Both the position numbers and the translations under genes were made by a program. Below, piece after piece: positions 1 through 7,526 of a stretch of 7,526 nt of DNA. How positions within the stretch are numbered: position 1 is the stretch's first letter; each line of letters opens with the position of its first letter. This DNA comes from Chitinivibrionales bacterium (GTDB taxonomy: Bacteria; Fibrobacterota; Chitinivibrionia; Chitinivibrionales; JANQEN01), in the NCBI GenBank assembly GCA_030593665.1, contig JAUVGS010000093.1, positions 1 through 7,526 on the forward strand, given 5' to 3'. A model generated the notes under the pieces. That model saw only the letters and a program-made list of their open reading frames with translations. It made no database searches and was not told where the DNA came from.

Positions 1-1
1 A

Positions 2-730
2 GGAAAAAACATTCACTCGACACTTAAAGTGACCATGTGCGGGACTCTGGGCCAACATAAAATATCTGATGGTAAGGATGAGGATTTCCCTTCAATTGTT
101 ACATTTGACCCTCGCTATATTAGCAAGGCTGTTTTGGGAGGATTGCAATTAGATATTAATCTTGACACCCGCGACAAAAAGGGACATTCAACGACCGGTA
201 CTCTCCTGAAGATAGCCGGTGGCTTTCGCGATGAAATTCGTAGATTAGGAGGACATGATACCTTCCGCAAAGAAATATATGGATTTTCACTTTTCACTGC
301 TGACCTTTCACAGTATGTACATTTACCCTGGAGTACCGGCCGGGTTATTGTGTTACGGATGGGTATGGAGACCCGGGAAGAGCTGCAAAATAAGTATATC
401 CCCTTTTATTTTCTAAGTGAATTAGGTTCAGATGGAACAATACGGGGATTTCAACGCGGACGGTTTCGTGATAAAGATGCACTGCTCGGTTCAGTTGAGT
501 ACCGTTACCCTATCTGGGCTGATTTTCCCAATTCACTTGACGCAGTGCTTTTTGTTGATGCCGGGCAGGTAACTGACAATCTTTTTTCCAATCTGAGTAG
601 AAAAAATATTCGTTTTGGATTCGGGGGCGGTTTCCGTTTTTATAATGATGAAGATGATGCCCTTGTAGGAAAAGTAATGTTTGGTTTCAGCAAGCATGAA
701 TTCCGGATACAATTTGCATTAAATGACTAG
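2..730 (+). CDS. Omp85/BamA-family outer-membrane beta-barrel protein, C-terminal part (5' end outside window)
   Basis: The reading frame is open from the left edge to the TAG at 728-730, giving 242 visible residues. The in-frame GTG at 29 and the ATG at 35 are internal codons, because the barrel needs more upstream sequence and any POTRA domains are missing. Seen: an early strand with DTRD; the family signature RGF in TIRGFQRGRFRD, with RGF at 443-451; then VEYRYPI; then FVDAGQV from 551; and a C-terminal strand near FRIQFALND. In Omp85 proteins the RGF motif lies in the loop-6 hairpin that folds into the barrel and is followed by E-R-P and F-D-G strands, exactly as here. The protein should sit in the outer membrane and act in outer-membrane protein insertion or in translocation. 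It could be BamA itself, TamA or another paralogue, which cannot be decided without the N terminus. The next gene starts 13 nt after its stop, or overlaps it by 8 nt if the earlier ATG is used. Confidence 0.9.
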   Translation, partial: GKNIHSTLKVTMCGTLGQHKISDGKDEDFPSIVTFDPRYISKAVLGGLQLDINLDTRDKKGHSTTGTLLKIAGGFRDEIRRLGGHDTFRKEIYGFSLFTADLSQYVHLPWSTGRVIVLRMGMETREELQNKYIPFYFLSELGSDGTIRGFQRGRFRDKDALLGSVEYRYPIWADFPNSLDAVLFVDAGQVTDNLFSNLSRKNIRFGFGGGFRFYNDEDDALVGKVMFGFSKHEFRIQFALND

Positions 731-733
731 GGA
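729..733 (+). promoter_or_regulatory. Possible Shine-Dalgarno for the secreted kinase-like gene
   Basis: AGGGA ends 10 nt before the ATG at 744. The alternative ATG at 723 has no purine-rich SD in front of it. The site overlaps the stop codon of the Omp85 gene, which suggests coupled translation. Confidence 0.45.
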
Positions 734-743
734 TACAGTACCT

Positions 744-2453
744 ATGAGAGCAAAGATACAAAACAGGTTATCCTTAAAAACAACATGGTTGTTATTTTTC
801 TTGATGCTTCATCTCCCGGTACTGTCAACCATTCATGCAAAAGACGAATTCGAAATCCCGACACCTCTTCCCCGTGATGACCGGCATATCCAAAAACCGG
901 AATTTACCGGCTACAATGTTCTGGCAACCGGGCTTGACCGACTTGCAGCGGAAACGCATGTCCGCTTTTTTGATGCGTCCCGTCATTTTAAAGAGTGGTC
1001 GGGCAATGAGACTGAGGCCATGAATGTGGACGCATTCGATGAGGTACCGAACTCGACCTGGTTTACAAACAGAAACGCTCACAAGAGAATGTCGCTTGAG
1101 AAAATTGCCCGAGGGCCGTATACCTCAACCGGCCCCGATACTGCAGGTGAATGGACAGTCACCAAAGCAAAAATAGTCGGCATGGCTCCGGGATTTTTTA
1201 TTAATGACAGTCGTGGTGACCGCTACATAATCAAATTTGATGTCATCGGCTATCCGGAACTTTCTACCGGCGCGGAAGTCGTCAGCACCAAGATCCTTCA
1301 TGCTGCCGGCTATCATGTGCCTGAAAATTATGTAACGGTCTTCGATCCGAAAAAAGTAAAGATGGGTGAAAAAATAAAATTTACCGACAACCGCGGCCGG
1401 AAGCGGTTCATGACCATGGCTGATCTGGAGGGAATTTTCAAACTCGTTGAGCACATGCCTGACGGTAAAATCAGGGGGCACGCCAGTAAATTTATAAACG
1501 GTATACCCGTCGGCAGTTTCCGCTTTCACGGCACCCGCCCTGATGACCCGAACGATTTTATTCCGCACGAGCACCGGCGCGAGGTACGGGGACTGCGCGT
1601 TATTGCTTCATGGATTCAGCACTACGACACAAACCTGGGAAACACCTTCGACTCGTATGTGGCCGACAATGGCAAAAGTTATGTCAGACACTACCTGATT
1701 GATTTTGGCGGCACCTTCGGCAGCTCCATATACGGGGCGATGCCTGCCACTTACGGCAACATTTATAACGTCGATATTCCTCAGACCCTTTTGTGGATCC
1801 TTACCTTTGGTTTTTATGTTCCTCCGTGGGAACGGTATGATACTATACCCCATCCGTCAGTCGGTGCCTGGGAATCTAAAACATTCCGCCCGGAAAAATT
1901 CAGGTTTATCAATCCCTGCGAGGCATTCGCTAATATGACCGACCGGGACAGTTACTGGGGAGCTAAGATTGTCATGTCATTCACTGACGAACAGATCGAT
2001 ACTCTCGTTCATGAGGGACAATATTCAAATAAGGACGCGGAAACATACATAGCGCGTATCCTGAAAGAGCGTCGTGATAAAATCGGGAGGTGGTATTACT
2101 CCCAGGTAAACCCGCTTGATAATTTTATACTGATTAGGCTGCAGTCCGGTAACTATGAACTCTATTTCGACGATATGTATGTAAAAGGGAATCTTTTAGC
2201 GCAGGATAAGATTACCTATACGCATCTACTTTCAACAGGAGACAAACGGGTACAATGGAAAACTGCGGAAAAAACCGAAAGCAATTGTATTCCCCTATCA
2301 AAAGATGATGTGCCGTCAGATGTAAGCGGTTTCTTAATTATGCATATTAAAGCTAAATACGATGGTAAAAAACGGTTGAGTAAAGAGATTCGGGTTTATT
2401 TACAAAAGTCAAAAGAAGGTAACCGTCTTTCATTAGTCGGTGCACGTCGTTAA
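744..2453 (+). CDS. Secreted/periplasmic protein with protein-kinase-like (HipA/Fam20-type) fold signature, function unknown
   Basis: 569 residues from ATG 744. An in-frame ATG at 723 would add 7 residues, but 744 has the better ribosome site and puts a basic n-region (MRAKIQNRLSLK) right before the hydrophobic core. Residues 1-32 look like a Sec signal peptide with likely cleavage after IHA; no lipobox Cys is present. I do not recognise a named family. Seen in order: loop GMAPGFF (146-152), YIIKF with K164, GAEVV with E178 fourteen residues later, GYHVPE (189-194), HEHRRE-VRGLR (275-284), HYDTNLGN (D295, N300) and LIDFGG (D320-F321-G322). These match the glycine loop, beta3 Lys, alphaC Glu, catalytic D-x4-N and DFG metal site of protein-kinase-like folds, closest in feel to HipA or Fam20-type atypical kinases. 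The region from about 450 to 569 is probably beta-rich and unassigned. Only two Cys remain after the signal (C392, C515). The kinase assignment is inference from motifs; substrate and activity are unknown. It is followed 13 nt later by a nucleotide-carrier-like gene. Confidence 0.9.
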   Translation: MRAKIQNRLSLKTTWLLFFLMLHLPVLSTIHAKDEFEIPTPLPRDDRHIQKPEFTGYNVLATGLDRLAAETHVRFFDASRHFKEWSGNETEAMNVDAFDEVPNSTWFTNRNAHKRMSLEKIARGPYTSTGPDTAGEWTVTKAKIVGMAPGFFINDSRGDRYIIKFDVIGYPELSTGAEVVSTKILHAAGYHVPENYVTVFDPKKVKMGEKIKFTDNRGRKRFMTMADLEGIFKLVEHMPDGKIRGHASKFINGIPVGSFRFHGTRPDDPNDFIPHEHRREVRGLRVIASWIQHYDTNLGNTFDSYVADNGKSYVRHYLIDFGGTFGSSIYGAMPATYGNIYNVDIPQTLLWILTFGFYVPPWERYDTIPHPSVGAWESKTFRPEKFRFINPCEAFANMTDRDSYWGAKIVMSFTDEQIDTLVHEGQYSNKDAETYIARILKERRDKIGRWYYSQVNPLDNFILIRLQSGNYELYFDDMYVKGNLLAQDKITYTHLLSTGDKRVQWKTAEKTESNCIPLSKDDVPSDVSGFLIMHIKAKYDGKKRLSKEIRVYLQKSKEGNRLSLVGARR

Positions 2454-2466
2454 AGGGGAAAAAAGG
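2452..2466 (+). promoter_or_regulatory. Ribosome binding site that decides the start of the NTT-like gene
   Basis: AAAGGGG at 2452-2458 lies 8 nt before ATG 2467, with a further AAAAGG directly before it. An upstream in-frame GTG at 2440 lies inside the previous gene and lacks an SD at proper distance, so ATG 2467 is preferred. The site overlaps the previous gene's TAA (2451-2453). Confidence 0.7.
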
Positions 2467-3795
2467 ATGGCTGCAAATAATTCAACAAAACCGCTTGATC
2501 GATTTCTCAATGTATTTACTGAAGTGCATGCTGGAGAAGGTATTTGTGCACTGGTTCTATCGTTGAATATTTTTTTAATTCTCACTGCATATTACATTAT
2601 CAAGCCTGTTCGGGAAGCGCTAATCCTTGCTGGAGGCGGTGCTGAAGTTAAAAGCTATGCTTCTGCGGGTCAGGCACTTCTTCTTCTCGGCGCAGTACCC
2701 CTCTATGGAATGCTTGCGAGCCGATTCCCCAGGCGAAAACTGATTAATACGGTAACGGTCTTTTTTGCCGGTTGCCTCATTCTTTTCTATTTGCTCGCCC
2801 AAATCAAGGTACCGCTCGGTATCATCTTTTACCTTTGGGTCGGTGTATTTAATCTTATGATTCCAGCTCAATTCTGGGCGCTTGCCAATGATCTGTACAC
2901 CCCAGCCGCAGGGAAACGCCTTTTTGTCATTGTCGCCTTCGGCGCATCTGCGGGTGCGGTGTTTGGCAGTTTTATTACCAGTAAATTAATTGAACCGCTC
3001 GGCGTATATCAACTGATGCTTTTGTCAAGCATTCTGTTAATTGCAAGTTTACTTCTTACAAATTATGTCGTCACTCATCAAAACCATGATACCAGGGATA
3101 ATGTCCCTCAGATACCGGAGGAACCGCTTAAAAAGGATGGGTCATTTAAACTGGTTTTTCAGCACAAATATTTGCTGATGATCGCCTTGCTTATGCTCAT
3201 TCTCAATTGGGTAAATACTACAGGGGAATATATCCTGAGCCGTACGATAGTGGCCGCTGCAGAGAATGCTGTAAAATCCGGAACAGCCGGTGATTTGTCT
3301 GTGGGTCAATATATCGGTAAATTTTATGCGTCCTTTTTTGGAATAGTCAATGCGGTAAGTTTGACACTGCAATTGTTTTTTGTCTCACGTATTTTAAAAT
3401 ATTTAGGTGTTCGTATTGCAATTCTTATTTTGCCTGTCATTGCCCTTGGCGGCTATTTTTTTATAGCCTTTTTCCCAATATTCTCTATTGTAAGATGGGC
3501 AAAAACAGCAGAGAATTCAACAGATTACTCTTTGCAGAATACTGTTCGCCAAGTGCTGTTTCTCCCTACTACCAGAGAGCAGAAATATAAGGCAAAGCAG
3601 GCTATTGACACCTTTTTCGTCCGTGCCGGGGATGTGCTGTCCGCCCTTATTGTTTATGTCGGCACAACCTTTCTGGCATTTCAGACAAAGCAATTTGCCC
3701 TGTTTAATTTAGGGCTTGTTGTTGTCTGGATTATTATCGCAGTTTTAATCGGACGTGAAAATGTGAGAATGACACAAGCAGACTCTTCAAAATGA
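2467..3795 (+). CDS. NTT-like (ATP:ADP antiporter family) membrane transporter, stand-alone
   Basis: 442 residues, inner membrane, about 11-12 hydrophobic segments: roughly 26-46, 66-84, 96-112, 117-138, 150-172, 180-198, a polar loop at 200-232, then 235-253, 283-306, 315-338, 388-406 and 408-428. Seen motifs: YYIIKPVREAL (42-52) at the first membrane segment; FWALANDLY then GKRLF (136-153) followed by a Gly-rich helix; and the C-terminal signature with KTAENSTDYS (346-355), LFLP (364-367), KYKAKQAID (373-381) and R386-A-G-D. This last block corresponds to the most conserved part of the nucleotide exchangers of chlamydiae, rickettsiae and plastids. In those proteins the family swaps ATP for ADP or imports NTPs; substrates of homologues in free-living bacteria are mostly unknown. 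The first-segment motif has R-E where classical ATP/ADP exchangers have K-D. It has no HEAT or cNMP extension, unlike the related protein on the other strand. Family membership is firm, nucleotide specificity is not. Confidence 0.9.
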   Translation: MAANNSTKPLDRFLNVFTEVHAGEGICALVLSLNIFLILTAYYIIKPVREALILAGGGAEVKSYASAGQALLLLGAVPLYGMLASRFPRRKLINTVTVFFAGCLILFYLLAQIKVPLGIIFYLWVGVFNLMIPAQFWALANDLYTPAAGKRLFVIVAFGASAGAVFGSFITSKLIEPLGVYQLMLLSSILLIASLLLTNYVVTHQNHDTRDNVPQIPEEPLKKDGSFKLVFQHKYLLMIALLMLILNWVNTTGEYILSRTIVAAAENAVKSGTAGDLSVGQYIGKFYASFFGIVNAVSLTLQLFFVSRILKYLGVRIAILILPVIALGGYFFIAFFPIFSIVRWAKTAENSTDYSLQNTVRQVLFLPTTREQKYKAKQAIDTFFVRAGDVLSALIVYVGTTFLAFQTKQFALFNLGLVVVWIIIAVLIGRENVRMTQADSSK

Positions 3796-3856
3796 TTTTC
3801 TTCACTTCGTTATTATCAATCAACAATACGATTTAGATAATAACACAGAAGAAAGT
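3795..3856. terminator. Imperfect inverted repeat between convergent genes, possible bidirectional terminator
   Basis: The inner arms 3809-3817 and 3836-3844 pair perfectly over 9 bp (GTTATTATC / GATAATAAC). The outer arms 3795-3803 and 3848-3856 pair over 9 bp with one G-U. They are separated by a small internal loop (5 nt against 3 nt). The apical loop can add 4 more pairs (3818-3821 / 3830-3833). The structure fills the 62-nt gap between two convergent stop codons. The stem is AT-rich and there is no clear U-tract on either side, so this is not a textbook Rho-independent terminator. Confidence 0.4.
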
Positions 3857-3857
3857 G

Positions 3858-4340
3858 TCACACAAAGGTCTTAACAATCTCAGTCTGCAGACTCTGTAAT
3901 TCTGAATAGGCCACATTAATTTCACCGATTTTATCATTCAGCTTTGATAAAAGCTTCTGCTTTTCCAATCCGTTCCTTATAATTATCAGTAAATCATCAT
4001 TACTCCAGGGCTTTTCAATATACTGATACAGGCCAACTTCATTGATAGCTTTGATAGCATTCTCTTTGTCTGCGTAGCCAGTGAGGATTATTCGGGGCAC
4101 CTGAGGTTTTAATTTTCGCACTTCACTGAGAAATTCAATACCATTCATATCAGGCATAAGATAATCTGAAATAACAAGATTTATCTCATTTTCCTTGATA
4201 TATTCCAGGGCTTTTTTCGGGGATTCAAATGTTTCAACAGTGTACTCTGTTTCGAGCGTTAAGAAAGAACTTAGACTCGTTAAAACTATCTCTTCGTCAT
4301 CAACAATAACAATAGTTGACTGATTCTGTTCGTCGGGCAT
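3858..4340 (-). CDS. Response-regulator receiver protein with short coiled-coil tail
   Basis: 160 residues. The CheY-like receiver spans about residues 8-125: acidic pair D14-D15 (IVIVDDEE), phosphoacceptor D59 in VISDYLMPDMNG, switch T87 in ILTGYA and the invariant K110 in YIEKPW. All catalytic positions are intact, so it should be phosphorylated by a histidine kinase that is not in this window. The KPW motif is common in receivers attached to HD-GYP or histidine-kinase outputs. Residues 126-160 form a charged, probably coiled helix ending in EIVKTFV, and no output domain follows; the codons past the TGA do not encode one. ATG 4340 has a good SD (AGGAG, complement of 4346-4350, 5 nt spacing). 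It is downstream of, and possibly cotranscribed with, the cNMP-domain gene across a 107-nt gap. The role is probably a phospho-switch acting by protein contact. Confidence 0.94.
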   Translation of the reverse strand: MPDEQNQSTIVIVDDEEIVLTSLSSFLTLETEYTVETFESPKKALEYIKENEINLVISDYLMPDMNGIEFLSEVRKLKPQVPRIILTGYADKENAIKAINEVGLYQYIEKPWSNDDLLIIIRNGLEKQKLLSKLNDKIGEINVAYSELQSLQTEIVKTFV

Positions 4341-4345
4341 AGTAA

Positions 4346-4350
4346 CTCCT
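4346..4350 (-). promoter_or_regulatory. Shine-Dalgarno of the receiver gene
   Basis: AGGAG on the minus strand, 5 nt before the ATG at 4340-4338. It supports this start. Confidence 0.75.
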
Positions 4351-4376
4351 GAAATTTTAACTATTACATTATTGGT

Positions 4377-4443
4377 AACTCATACAAAATAATACGCACC
4401 ATGAGGAAAAAGAAATATAGTGCGGAGTATAGAGGTATGAGTT
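4377..4443. repeat. Large imperfect hairpin in the gap between the cNMP-domain and receiver genes
   Basis: The outer arms AACTCATAC (4377-4385) and GTATGAGTT (4435-4443) are perfect 9-bp inverted repeats. Inside them CGCAC (4395-4399) pairs with GTGCG (4420-4424), and ATA (4392-4394) with TAT (4428-4430) after a 3-nt bulge. The loop is about 20 nt and A-rich. The right arm lies just past the cNMP gene's stop (TAA at 4450-4448 on the minus strand). There is no U-tract, so a transcript-processing or attenuation element is as likely as a terminator. AT-rich stretches towards the receiver gene could hold a promoter, but I see no convincing -35/-10 pair. Confidence 0.45.
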
Positions 4444-4447
4444 TCTT

Positions 4448-4891
4448 TTATTTCTTCCCTGAGTTAGGCAGAGAAACACGTCCCACCAGTCCTCTCAACT
4501 TTGTAGCCATAGCGCTGAGAATTGAGCGTGTTATTTCGGAGTGGTCGGCGAGCAGGTCATGAAAATCATTCTTTTCCAAACAAAGTAGCCGTGAATCAGT
4601 CAGGCAGGTAGCGGCGGCAACCCGTTCTTCCTCATCAAAAAGAGCCCACACCCCGAAGGTTGATTTCGGTTTCGCAACCAGAACCTCCCGGTCCCCGCGG
4701 TGAAGACGGACCTCCCCCTGTATGACAACATACATGGCATCCGCATACTCACCTTCGGAGTAGATATGATCACCTTCCTGAAACTCAACCTCCTCGGTAA
4801 TAACTGCAATATATCCAAGATACTCTGTAGAAACCGATTGAAGGATTTCAACTTCCTGCAGTAGTAACACCTTTTCTATTGTACTCAGCAT
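4448..4891 (-). CDS. Small cyclic-nucleotide-binding-domain (CRP-like sensor) protein, no DNA-binding domain
   Basis: 147 residues. A cNMP-binding fold fills residues about 5-135: helical start MLSTIEKVLLLQEVEIL, beta roll with EGDHIYSEGEYADAMYVV (39-56) and IQGEVRL, a phosphate-binding-cassette-like stretch FGVWALFDEEERVAAAT (79-95), then LTDSRLLCL and a C-terminal helix. There is no helix-turn-helix, so it is not a CRP/FNR transcription factor. The cassette Arg (R90) is kept, but the Glu that normally follows FG and holds the ribose hydroxyl is Val (V81), so ligand choice may differ or binding may be lost. It starts with ATG inside the last codons of the NTT-HEAT gene (7-nt overlap, different frame), so translation is very probably coupled. 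In related systems NTT-HEAT proteins carry a C-terminal cNMP domain, so this is likely the detached sensor of the same machine. Confidence 0.92.
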   Translation of the reverse strand: MLSTIEKVLLLQEVEILQSVSTEYLGYIAVITEEVEFQEGDHIYSEGEYADAMYVVIQGEVRLHRGDREVLVAKPKSTFGVWALFDEEERVAAATCLTDSRLLCLEKNDFHDLLADHSEITRSILSAMATKLRGLVGRVSLPNSGKK

Positions 4892-7526
4892 AGGTTACCT
4901 TCCAGTATTTGCTTCGCAGTTTCACGGGTAATTGTATCGGTATGTTCTGTATATTCTTTAAGTATATCGTGACTCTGTTCCGGTATAACCGTTCCCATCA
5001 TATAAAGGGTACATGCTCTCAACCAGTTATCATTTCCCTCAAGGGCCCTTTTTAACAATTGGGGATCGTTGGTATATTGTTCCCCACTGACTGGTCCCAC
5101 ACCCTGCCTGCTACCGGAATGAGAGTACTCTTCCGCAATCGGCACCAATACTTTTTTCAATTTTAAACTGAGGATAGTATCCAGAAACTCAATAGTATTT
5201 GCATTCATTTGAATATTGTTACTTTTAAGGCCTCGATAGGTTTGAAACATGTCACGTATCCCATACTGTAATCCGAGTATCATAAAAATCTTTTCCAGAG
5301 ACCGGTCGCATTTCTCATTTATTGCCTTTACAAAAAGGGTGTGAGCCTGCCCTGAAGTTCCGGCACGTTCATCTGAATTGTTATCCGCCGGATTGAAACG
5401 CATAATCTGTTTAAGATAATTAAAATGATCAATCTCCTTAAAGACATACGTCAGGATTACCGGCCGTGGAAAGCGTATACCTCTGAACTTGCCGCCAAGG
5501 GCGGTAAGCGCTCTGATAACTTCTGAAATATACGTAAAAGTGTCCTGATTTAAAAAAGAGAGCAATAGATCGGCAGACTGTTGTGCATTAATCTCTCCCA
5601 ATGTCCTGATAACGCCCTTACGGATATTTTCAGCAATCGAGTCATCTTTCAGTATTTTCTCCAACTCGGGAATAACTGACACACCATAACCGGCTAACGC
5701 TTTACGGGCATCTCTGCGTACTGATCTGGTTTCCAGTTTATTAATAAGTATTTGAATAAACGGTTTATGGCAAATTATCCCGGCACTTCGAATTGCCTCT
5801 TTTTGTACTGATAGTGACTCATCATGAAACAAAGGCTTAAGAGAATCGTTCAGTTCCGGTTGATGTGCTGCTGCGACAACTTTCGCGACAAGAATTTTTA
5901 ACGATTCATTTTCACCTTCACTATGCTTGATAATAGTTTGCAAACCTCTAAATACTTCTAATAAATCAGAAGATGCATTCTTGTGTTTTTTCTCTCCAAC
6001 AGCCGTTGCATAGTATAACAGTGCAGCAGATTTTACTTTTATATCCGAATCATATAAAAAATTCTGTAACGCTTTATTGGTATCAGTGCTTCTCCGGCAG
6101 ATATAACGAATCGCTTCTACACGAACATCCTGGTTTTCATCGCGTACTAACGTATTTATTTCATCAGCCACATTCTCCTGCTGAAAAGTATTAAGTAATT
6201 TAACAACGGCAACACGAATCGCCGCGTTACCATGTTTTAATAATGTTTTCAGTTGTGAGAATGAGTGCGTATCTTTTATCTCGGAAAGTAAATTTACTAT
6301 GAACAGTATCTGTTTTTCGTTGTATTGTGAAATGTCATGAAGCAGGCCCTCCAGAAGCTGTGTATCCTTGATATCAATTTCGAAATCAACACTTCTTTTT
6401 TCAATTGCCTGTCTGAAGGAATTGATATACTCTTTCCTTACCTTAATAATAATTATTAGAAGCTGGATAACAACCAGCGTTATTATTACATAACTGATAC
6501 TCTGCACCGAAAAATTAAGCTGATAGATTAAAAGAATCAGTACAACCCCGCCCAGACCTGTGGCAAAGGTGTCGGCAAACACATCGATAAAGGTCTTGGT
6601 TCTGCTTTTCAGACTGGTAGGAACCGGCACGGCTAGCAGTTCCAGGCCGCTTTTATCAATGGAATTTTTCAAACTGCCGCTTGTCATTTTCAGAACTACC
6701 GCAGCAACTATTCCGGGAGCGAGAAGTATCCCGGCGGCACCTGCTAATATTCCCAGCGGCAGGGTAAAAAGTGAAGGGAGTACACCAAATGTTTTAATTA
6801 TCTTCTGGGTAAGAAAAATCTGGATGCCGAGTGAAACGACACTGAGCGTCGAAAGCCAGAATCCGAAAAATGCAGCCAGTTTATTGGGGTCGGTAATAAA
6901 TTCCGATGCAAATGCACTGAACTGATAATCAACCAAGCTTGCGGTGAATACGCTCATTATAATCAATAGCATTATCGAAAAAAGCAGCGCAGAACCGGTA
7001 ATAAGCTTCACCGGATTGCCGGTTGTTTCACACGTACGGGCTGTACGGGAGGATTTGGTTTTAAATTTAAAATCTATATGAATTGCCTTTCTGACAATAA
7101 TTTGAACGAGCAGAATACAGAGCAGTAAACATAATGCCCCACACAGGAGGAGATTTTCAGAATGGATAAGCGGTGCAAGTATATTTGTCAGATACCCGCC
7201 GAAAATACCGCCCATAATGGCACCGATGCCAAGAAACCCAAAAAGCCGTTTGGCTTCACGGGCGTTAAAAACAAGGTGAGCCAGTAGCCAGAATTGAGCT
7301 GTTGCAATAAGGCTGAATATAGCGACCCAGACATAAAAAAGGTAAAAAAACCATCTCGCCTGATACTTTACTGTAAATAATATCCAGAAAAAGAGTATAC
7401 AGACAATTGAAAAAATCAACGTTGATGAAATGAGGGCGGCAAGATTGGTAACACGGTTCAGCCTGCCGTATATGGTAACGACAATCCCGGAAATCACTGC
7501 CACCAGTATATACACATGAGGGAGGT
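4885..7526 (-). CDS. NTT-like (ATP:ADP antiporter family) membrane domain fused to C-terminal HEAT repeats, N terminus outside window
   Basis: The frame is open to the right edge. The GTG at 7515-7513 gives 876 residues, but three more codons (L-P-H) lie upstream in frame and the first membrane segment seen in the other NTT gene is absent, so the gene is 5'-partial. Residue numbers count from that GTG. Residues 1-360 are the carrier: hydrophobic segments near 1-17, 26-47, 56-78, 90-112, 120-140, 172-195, 212-235, 245-275, 318-332 and 338-358; motif FWLLAHLVFNAREAKRLF (75-92) matching the same site in the other NTT gene; and conserved GSLKNSIDKSGLELLAVP then KTFID (279-311). Residues about 390-680 are HEAT-type alpha repeats (for example RDENQDVRVEAIRYI at 458-472, DSDIKVKSAALLYYA at 489-503, DESLSVQKEAIRSAG at 565-579). 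Residues 720-800 form a different helical module, followed by a last repeat-like unit (NDNWLRACTLYMMG). The HEAT part should lie in the cytoplasm as a binding scaffold. The signature lysines and acids of classical ATP/ADP exchangers are less well kept than in the plus-strand homologue, so transport or sensing is open. Confidence 0.92.
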   Translation of the reverse strand, partial: LPHVYILVAVISGIVVTIYGRLNRVTNLAALISSTLIFSIVCILFFWILFTVKYQARWFFYLFYVWVAIFSLIATAQFWLLAHLVFNAREAKRLFGFLGIGAIMGGIFGGYLTNILAPLIHSENLLLCGALCLLLCILLVQIIVRKAIHIDFKFKTKSSRTARTCETTGNPVKLITGSALLFSIMLLIIMSVFTASLVDYQFSAFASEFITDPNKLAAFFGFWLSTLSVVSLGIQIFLTQKIIKTFGVLPSLFTLPLGILAGAAGILLAPGIVAAVVLKMTSGSLKNSIDKSGLELLAVPVPTSLKSRTKTFIDVFADTFATGLGGVVLILLIYQLNFSVQSISYVIITLVVIQLLIIIIKVRKEYINSFRQAIEKRSVDFEIDIKDTQLLEGLLHDISQYNEKQILFIVNLLSEIKDTHSFSQLKTLLKHGNAAIRVAVVKLLNTFQQENVADEINTLVRDENQDVRVEAIRYICRRSTDTNKALQNFLYDSDIKVKSAALLYYATAVGEKKHKNASSDLLEVFRGLQTIIKHSEGENESLKILVAKVVAAAHQPELNDSLKPLFHDESLSVQKEAIRSAGIICHKPFIQILINKLETRSVRRDARKALAGYGVSVIPELEKILKDDSIAENIRKGVIRTLGEINAQQSADLLLSFLNQDTFTYISEVIRALTALGGKFRGIRFPRPVILTYVFKEIDHFNYLKQIMRFNPADNNSDERAGTSGQAHTLFVKAINEKCDRSLEKIFMILGLQYGIRDMFQTYRGLKSNNIQMNANTIEFLDTILSLKLKKVLVPIAEEYSHSGSRQGVGPVSGEQYTNDPQLLKRALEGNDNWLRACTLYMMGTVIPEQSHDILKEYTEHTDTITRETAKQILEGNLC
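4898..4903 (-). promoter_or_regulatory. Shine-Dalgarno of the cNMP gene, embedded in the end of the NTT-HEAT gene
   Basis: GGAAGG on the minus strand lies 6 nt before ATG 4891-4889. It is made by the codons for the last residues (LEGNLC) of the upstream gene. It supports a real separate start rather than a frameshift artefact. Confidence 0.65.

Follow-up and report, generated by a model that had tools for sequence, protein, structure and literature searches.

A 7,526-nucleotide stretch of a Chitinivibrionales genome (contig JAUVGS010000093.1, positions 1 to 7,526; hereafter the window) encodes a 569-residue protein with an export signal and, in its predicted structure, the two lobes of a kinase-like fold. 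Its gene follows that of an Omp85-superfamily barrel protein, which ends at position 730, and precedes a gene for a membrane carrier of the NTT/TLC nucleotide-carrier family; genes for a receiver protein, a cyclic-nucleotide-binding-domain (cNBD) protein and a carrier with HEAT repeats (NTT-HEAT) follow on the opposite strand (Table 1). Exported kinases need a source of nucleotide, and the compartment that they occupy is thought to hold little ATP. Across genomes, the company kept by this gene (Omp85 proteins, phosphatases and ATP/ADP-type carriers) hints at an outer-envelope phosphorylation system in some free-living bacteria.

A kinase-like fold behind an export signal

The open reading frame starts at an ATG at position 744 and stops at 2451–2453; a second in-frame ATG lies at 723. 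The initial annotation had read a kinase-like fold from a set of sequence hallmarks (G146–F151, K164, E178, H275–R285, D295, N300 and D320), and we found every one of them at that position. An AlphaFold2 model of the protein (predicted local distance difference test score, pLDDT, 93), compared with solved folds, supported this reading and revealed a two-lobed kinase-like fold together with a fibronectin-III-like domain. Among the solved folds listed in fold searches, the closest were CtkA, Fam20 and PI4KII. Of the features that mark the protein-kinase-like fold superfamily, the two-lobed fold and conservation of the beta3 Lys, the D-x4-N loop and the metal-binding Asp were found; the alphaC Glu is fully conserved in close homologues and less so in divergent ones. 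On the evidence of the model, the product of this gene almost certainly has a kinase-like fold.

The N-terminus of the window copy looks by eye like an ordinary signal peptide, in agreement with the annotation. Among relatives, a lipobox Cys was present in 91 of 119 proteins under a strict pattern and in 150 of 202 under a relaxed one, and in the latter set the residue after the Cys was never Asp. In E. coli, Asp at that place holds a lipoprotein in the inner membrane; by this rule, the lipoproteins of the family would not be held there. Judging from these N-termini, the kinase protein is likely located in the periplasm or outer membrane, and it is probably outer-membrane-associated. The annotation was mistaken in calling exported kinase-like proteins rare in bacteria, since 4757 of 7997 scored candidates matched this family at E 1e-3 or better.

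The active site is conserved

We aligned the window protein with 118 homologues that are 42–77% identical to it (alignment A1, holding 119 of the best 120 candidates listed, with the partial protein P0007 left out). We also compared a divergent set of 83 kinase copies from 80 loci, which were the best 80 of 450 confirmed stretches and came from named genomes. The close alignment has 33 invariant positions out of 569, including 2 of the 40 K, 1 of the 31 E, 6 of the 39 D and 3 of the 26 N. K164, E178, D295 and N300 belong to this set, so these hallmark residues are conserved beyond chance; for a K, an E, a D and an N picked at random, the probability that all four are invariant is 2.9e-5. D320 is kept in 118 of the 119. 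In the divergent copies K164 and D295 were each retained 82 times and N300 and D320 83 times, and K164, D295 and D320 thus do not vary freely in homologues. Of the five residues expected to be invariant, these four come close to it in the divergent copies; E178 is less well kept and is Glu in 62 of the 83 divergent copies and Asp in 7 of the other 21. Six short relatives described below keep the K, the helix E, the D, the N and the second D in every case. As read from these residues, the nucleotide site is probably intact and the protein an active nucleotide-using enzyme.

It is very unlikely that the protein is instead a dead kinase-like scaffold. Replacement of E178 in 21 divergent copies, and Gly in the place of D295 in a second kinase copy at locus L025, would fit such a scaffold; the near-complete retention of K164, D295, N300 and D320 in the divergent set argues against it. 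The second copy at L025 (3943–5568, minus strand) adjoins NTT-HEAT and cNBD genes, and from its sequence it may be a pseudokinase that partners the intact copy at the same locus.

The HEHRREVRGLR stretch does behave as the family motif it had been taken for, with H275, R278, R279 and R282 invariant across the 119 proteins. Together with S248, W405 and R443, these are invariant residues outside the usual kinase set. Such residues, the distance of the family from every profile tested and the existence of kinase-fold families with other chemistries (SelO, SidJ) all favour an intact fold that has been repurposed for nucleotidylation as in SelO, for ligation, or for a regulatory role in which it binds ATP and acts on the Omp85 barrel, with no phosphotransfer. 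We consider this fairly unlikely, given that K, D-x4-N and D are conserved as in phosphotransferases and that phosphatases are frequent neighbours. Phosphotransfer by the kinase protein, as suggested by its conserved residues, is the activity that we favour with some reserve.

A family apart from known kinases

Pfam and NCBIfam scans of the kinase protein gave no family match, the sole Pfam row (CSTF_C, E 0.074) being far under the cut-off. Searches of PDB sequences gave no credible match, and we took the hits to 7m5f (E 1.2) and 6v3p (E 0.082) as chance. None of the best 120 listed matches had a precomputed Pfam domain, and all their source-given names were 'hypothetical protein'. We tried several known families as candidates. 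Membership of HipA_C (PF07804) or CotH (PF08757) was rejected, with no Pfam match at E 1 to either; the profile comparison with HipA and CotH that the annotation had proposed found no relation (hhalign, 0.5% for HipA_C, with only two sequences, and 0.1% for CotH, with 16 domains). Fam20C, SelO and the PI3/PI4-kinases, whose models we take to be in the searched Pfam library, likewise gave no match at E 1, and Fam20 and the PI3/PI4 kinases are alike in fold only. The fold is a known one, but searches of Pfam, NCBIfam and PDB sequences did not find the family, which is most reasonably placed on a branch of its own within the kinase-like fold.

Among the matches listed from the open-licence literature, no title or abstract described this kinase family or an association of kinase, NTT and Omp85. 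Patterns drawn from the window proteins confirmed no relatives of the kinase or the NTT-HEAT protein in viral contigs. None of the defence-system models matched the kinase or the NTT carrier beside it (NTT1); the HEAT part of NTT-HEAT matched the defence model HEAT-ARM (E 1.6e-7).

Six short relatives from Acidobacteriota (327–414 residues; Table 1) have hydrophobic N-termini by eye, lack the fibronectin-III-like domain and carry D-L-G or similar in place of D-F-G. They matched the family profile with a probability of 100% (E 1.2e-41) when the query profile also held these six, and with 98.5% (E 2.8e-15) when it was built from A1 alone. A Pfam scan of three of the six found no family, with a BigA_N row under the cut-off for the L118 protein (E 0.062). 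A divergent relative of 645 residues at L119:2020-3957 (minus strand) has HSERREVRG and CFDVRWDNN motifs, a lipobox-like N-terminal stretch and no Pfam family. Even if the link to carriers fails, a kinase-fold family that numbers thousands of proteins and drew no match in these libraries deserves a name.

An Omp85 barrel is the most constant partner

Of the 80 loci, 75 have an open reading frame upstream of the kinase gene; in 68 of these, an Omp85 gene comes directly before the kinase gene on the same strand, within 300 nucleotides of it. Clustering of neighbours across the 80 loci gave Omp85 in 70, NTT with cNBD in 42, receiver or sensor proteins in 30 and metallophosphatases in 22, the next largest cluster having 12; the barrel is the kinase's most constant partner. 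We modelled a full-length relative of the truncated window protein (L004:8592-9926) and found a barrel preceded by N-terminal helices, with about 110 residues ahead of the barrel that include a helical stretch of about 45. This description leaves aside residues 28–53, where pLDDT is below 50. A Pfam scan recognised no POTRA family in the L004 protein, and the copy at L060 matched no Pfam family at all. The Omp85 alignment (A4) holds 61 of 63 listed proteins of 400–500 residues.

This constancy (68 of 75) and the presence of helices, not a recognised POTRA, ahead of the L004 barrel could also mean that the kinase relies on its Omp85 partner for secretion or display at the cell surface in a two-partner or PlpD-type manner, with the enzyme, still possibly a kinase, acting extracellularly. 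Against this, ATP would be scarce at the surface, and the lipobox in many relatives fits a membrane-bound place. Omp85 proteins bearing patatin-type or PF00149 domains, described in sections of PMC4104836, add to the case for display, which we nevertheless regard as quite improbable. That the protein is an envelope phosphotransferase working with its Omp85 partner seems to us evenly balanced.

Phosphatases also recur near the kinase. The gene often found 3' of it encodes a PF00149 phosphoesterase (two members scanned), with a lipobox in 13 of 20 under the strict pattern. According to parts of PMC4104836, where PF00149 is called a metalloprotease domain, Omp85 proteins bearing it form a separate Omp85 group; this is an independent hint that phosphoesterase and Omp85 belong together. 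A PAP2 phosphatase gene lies near the kinase in a cluster of six loci (L072:11628-12503, the copy scanned, L039, L046, L051, L054 and L063) and is possibly an alternative to the metallophosphatase. Directly after the kinase gene in L046 (11620-12972), L051 and L063, loci titled Zixiibacteriota, is a gene for a protein of 423–450 residues; the L046 copy has no Pfam match.

NTT-family carriers often accompany the kinase

We built profiles from 21 linked NTT1 proteins (A2) and 21 linked NTT-HEAT proteins (A3). Against solved ADP/ATP carriers, A2 matched 9j3n at E 3.6e-33 and the chloroplastic 9j3j at E 3.2e-27; for A3 the values were 1.8e-23 and 6.5e-22. PF03219 itself was not reported in the Pfam scan of the cut window copy of NTT-HEAT. 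Among 22 aligned NTT1 proteins (loci and window), K55, D151, R160, K382, K386, D390 and R395 are kept in all.

Under stricter labels, an NTT gene lies within 10 kb of the kinase in 39 of the 80 loci, across many phyla. Ten genomes hold 16 NTT genes, of which 9 lie no more than 10 kb from a kinase gene; random placement would give 0.106. Linkage is scattered on the kinase tree, with 24 changes, 17 of them forced by well-supported branches, against a shuffled mean of 27.

We searched three genome samples, whose group names are inferred, with kinase and NTT models; the initial search was loose, and absences may be misses. In the class of G007 (Fodinibius; 164 genomes, completeness at least 90), 21 genomes had both genes, 6 the kinase only, 7 NTT only and 130 neither (Fisher p 1.6e-15), and 19 of the 21 shared genomes had them linked within 10 kb. 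This sample includes a weak hit, G113; without it there are 26 kinase genomes and p is 3.7e-16. The corresponding counts in the phylum of G001 (locus titled Zixiibacteriota; 132 genomes) were 30, 5, 3 and 94 (p 3.5e-21). In the phylum of G303 (Acidobacteriota; locus titled Acidobacteriia; 199 genomes) they were 31, 4, 30 and 134 for kinase hits below 1e-30 (p 3e-15), and 31, 9, 30 and 129 when all 40 kinase hits, weak ones included, were counted (p 5.8e-12). As controls in the 132-genome set, CotH occurred in 16 genomes, 6 of them with NTT (p 0.23), and showed no association with the kinase (p 0.13); HipA_C occurred in 3 genomes, one with NTT (p 1.0).

A possible envelope phosphorylation system

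The best explanation that we can offer is an envelope phosphotransferase that acts beside its Omp85 partner and is supplied with nucleotide by the linked carriers. In its boldest form this would be a dedicated phosphorylation system of the envelope in free-living bacteria: NTT-type carriers would export nucleotide across the inner membrane, and a kinase from a new family, associated with the outer membrane, would use it in concert with an Omp85 protein lacking POTRA and with exported phosphatases. The kinase would use a nucleotide to phosphorylate an acceptor in the periplasm or outer membrane, perhaps a lipid or the Omp85 partner itself. The linked inner-membrane carriers would supply the nucleotide, for example by moving cytosolic ATP out against ADP in, and the linked exported metallophosphatase or PAP2 phosphatase would reverse or complete the reaction. 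The barrel may anchor the kinase, be its substrate or place the modified product. The proposal draws on the predicted fold, the conserved active-site residues (K, D, N and D), an export signal or lipobox, a gene order Omp85–kinase–NTT that resembles an operon, and the co-occurrence with NTT; from these we infer catalysis, fuelling, the substrate and the role of the barrel.

Several observations weigh against this system. E178 varies among divergent copies. Of the 80 loci, 41 have no NTT gene within 10 kb, with the reservation that many of the contigs are short. The Fisher tests ignore shared ancestry, which inflates the significance of their p values. Linkage within 10 kb was found in 18 of the 30 shared genomes in the phylum of G001 and in only 11 of 31 in Acidobacteriota, where a strong kinase hit is missing from 30 of the 61 genomes with NTT. 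G005 (Latescibacterota, locus L036, record titled chromosome) carries two kinase genes but gave no hit for NTT, so NTT is not obligatory. Its kinase gene at L036 does not directly follow an Omp85 gene, and G005 offers a natural test of whether the kinase can function without carriers.

The carriers themselves raise a further objection. Among the transport residues of AtNTT1 (K155, E245, E385 and K527), an acid near E385 seems kept in the window NTT, and K155 and E245 are not surely mappable. The place of K527, inferred from the GKSG motif, has no conserved Lys in the linked carriers and is Asp in the window, and canonical ATP/ADP exchange by these carriers is therefore in doubt. K527 is required for ATP binding according to part of one report (PMC3306366) and, in part of another, is said to matter for triphosphates and not diphosphates (PMC4256464).

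This last point also suits a scavenging role, in which nucleotides or phosphorylated compounds from outside the cell would be processed by extracytoplasmic phosphatases together with the kinase-fold enzyme, and the products taken up through the NTTs, the kinase not being fed by the carriers. The nearby metallophosphatase and PAP2 genes fit it, as does nucleotide import by the NTTs of intracellular parasites, reported in sections of PMC5381601. Scavenging is compatible with the core of our proposal, and we think it unlikely: an exported enzyme whose ATP-type site is conserved would need a nucleotide source, and NTT co-occurrence tracks the kinase, not CotH, in the single sample in which both were counted (132 genomes). 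Supply of nucleotide to the kinase by the carriers is a proposition that we hold slightly short of an even balance, and the complete envelope phosphorylation system is more tentative still.

If the system is real, it would explain both the role of the NTT proteins of many free-living bacteria and the ATP source of one class of exported kinases, and phosphorylation would be a possible added layer of outer-membrane control beside the Omp85 barrel. If the link holds, both questions could be tested in one operon, including those of Fodinibius roseus DSM 21986 (L059) and Fodinibius salsisoli 1BSP15-2V2 (L060).

Other genes and features

A stand-alone receiver protein adjoining NTT-HEAT and cNBD genes recurs in several loci (for example L003, L004, L013 and L018), an arrangement that suggests regulation of the carriers by two-component signalling and cyclic nucleotides. 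The response-regulator label in the neighbourhood counts is promiscuous, and we did not use it as evidence. Nor did we use a scan for promoters (10 against 7.6 in shuffles, standard deviation 3.1) and terminator-like sites (8 against 3.6, standard deviation 1.8).

Table 1 Features of the window and short relatives of the kinase (conservation counts refer to the 119-protein alignment unless marked)
Feature	Position	Strand	Evidence
C-terminal part of an Omp85-superfamily beta-barrel protein (window start cuts the gene)	2..730	+	Pfam PF01103 E 1.6e-15
Exported protein with predicted kinase-like fold, 569 aa	744..2453	+	AlphaFold2 model, homologue alignment, fold matches
Signal peptide, residues ~1-32	744..839	+	End set by eye (AKD after hydrophobic helix); model helix 2-29; lipobox here in most relatives examined
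Gly-loop-like GMAPGF, residues 146-151	1179..1196	+	G146, G150 119/119; turn between predicted strands 137-143 and 150-154
K164, beta3-type lysine	1233..1235	+	119/119; 82/83 divergent; 6/6 short relatives; end of predicted strand 160-164
E178, alphaC-type glutamate	1275..1277	+	119/119; 62/83 divergent; in predicted helix 173-188
HEHRREVRGLR family motif, residues 275-285	1566..1598	+	H275, R278, R279, R282 invariant; R279, R282 83/83 divergent
Catalytic-loop D295-x4-N300	1626..1643	+	D295, N300 119/119; 82/83 and 83/83 divergent
D320-F-G, metal-binding-type DFG	1701..1709	+	D320 118/119; 83/83 divergent
C-terminal fibronectin-III-like domain, residues ~456-559	2109..2420	+	
NTT/TLC nucleotide-carrier-family membrane protein	2467..3795	+	PF03219 46.1 bits, cut-off 21; ATG 13 nt past kinase stop
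Response-regulator receiver protein, 160 aa	3858..4340	-	PF00072 E 1.5e-28
Cyclic-nucleotide-binding-domain protein, 147 aa	4448..4891	-	PF00027 E 1.8e-18
NTT-HEAT protein (carrier domain and HEAT repeats; 5' end outside window)	4885..7524	-	PF13646 (HEAT_2) E 2.4e-25; chloroplastic carrier 9j3j E 1.7e-6
Short kinase-fold relatives	L115:4624-5643; L116:4585-5829 and 2132-3121; L117:4371-5354; L118:5341-6432; L120:4590-5636		

Comparison with known systems

The kinase-like fold is common to the window protein and the CotH kinases. Unlike CtkA and the HipA–HipT kinases, the window protein is exported, has an N-terminal extension and a fibronectin-III-like domain, and is encoded beside Omp85 and NTT genes. 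From the Fam20 secretory-pathway kinases it differs in sequence (at most 12% identity in the listed structural rows), in being bacterial and in the same gene company. The available text of a Fam20 review (PMC7948968) mentions neither CotH nor HipA, and its single 'bacteri' stands in the title of a reference.

The kinase-linked Omp85 proteins share a barrel without recognised POTRA with the noNterm group, as it appears in parts of Heinz and Lithgow (2014; PMC4104836); that group has no N-terminal extension, whereas the L004 protein has its residues ahead of the barrel. In the Metallo group of the same paper PF00149 lies within the Omp85 protein, whereas at the kinase loci it is a separate neighbouring gene. 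The partner here is a kinase-fold protein, and 'kinase' has 0 occurrences in the text of that paper available to us.

For the carriers, the closest precedent is the survey of NTT and NTT-HEAT proteins of free-living bacteria by Major et al. (2017; PMC5381601). Its available sections report NTTs from many free-living bacteria, trace the characterised ones to parasites or endosymbiotic settings and describe cyanobacterial NTT fusions as uncharacterised. The domain layout described there, a carrier, HEAT repeats and an adjoining cNBD gene, is that of the window. Those sections name no partner enzyme ('kinase', 'periplasm' and 'export' each occur 0 times in the main text), whereas at the kinase loci we found a recurrent partner.
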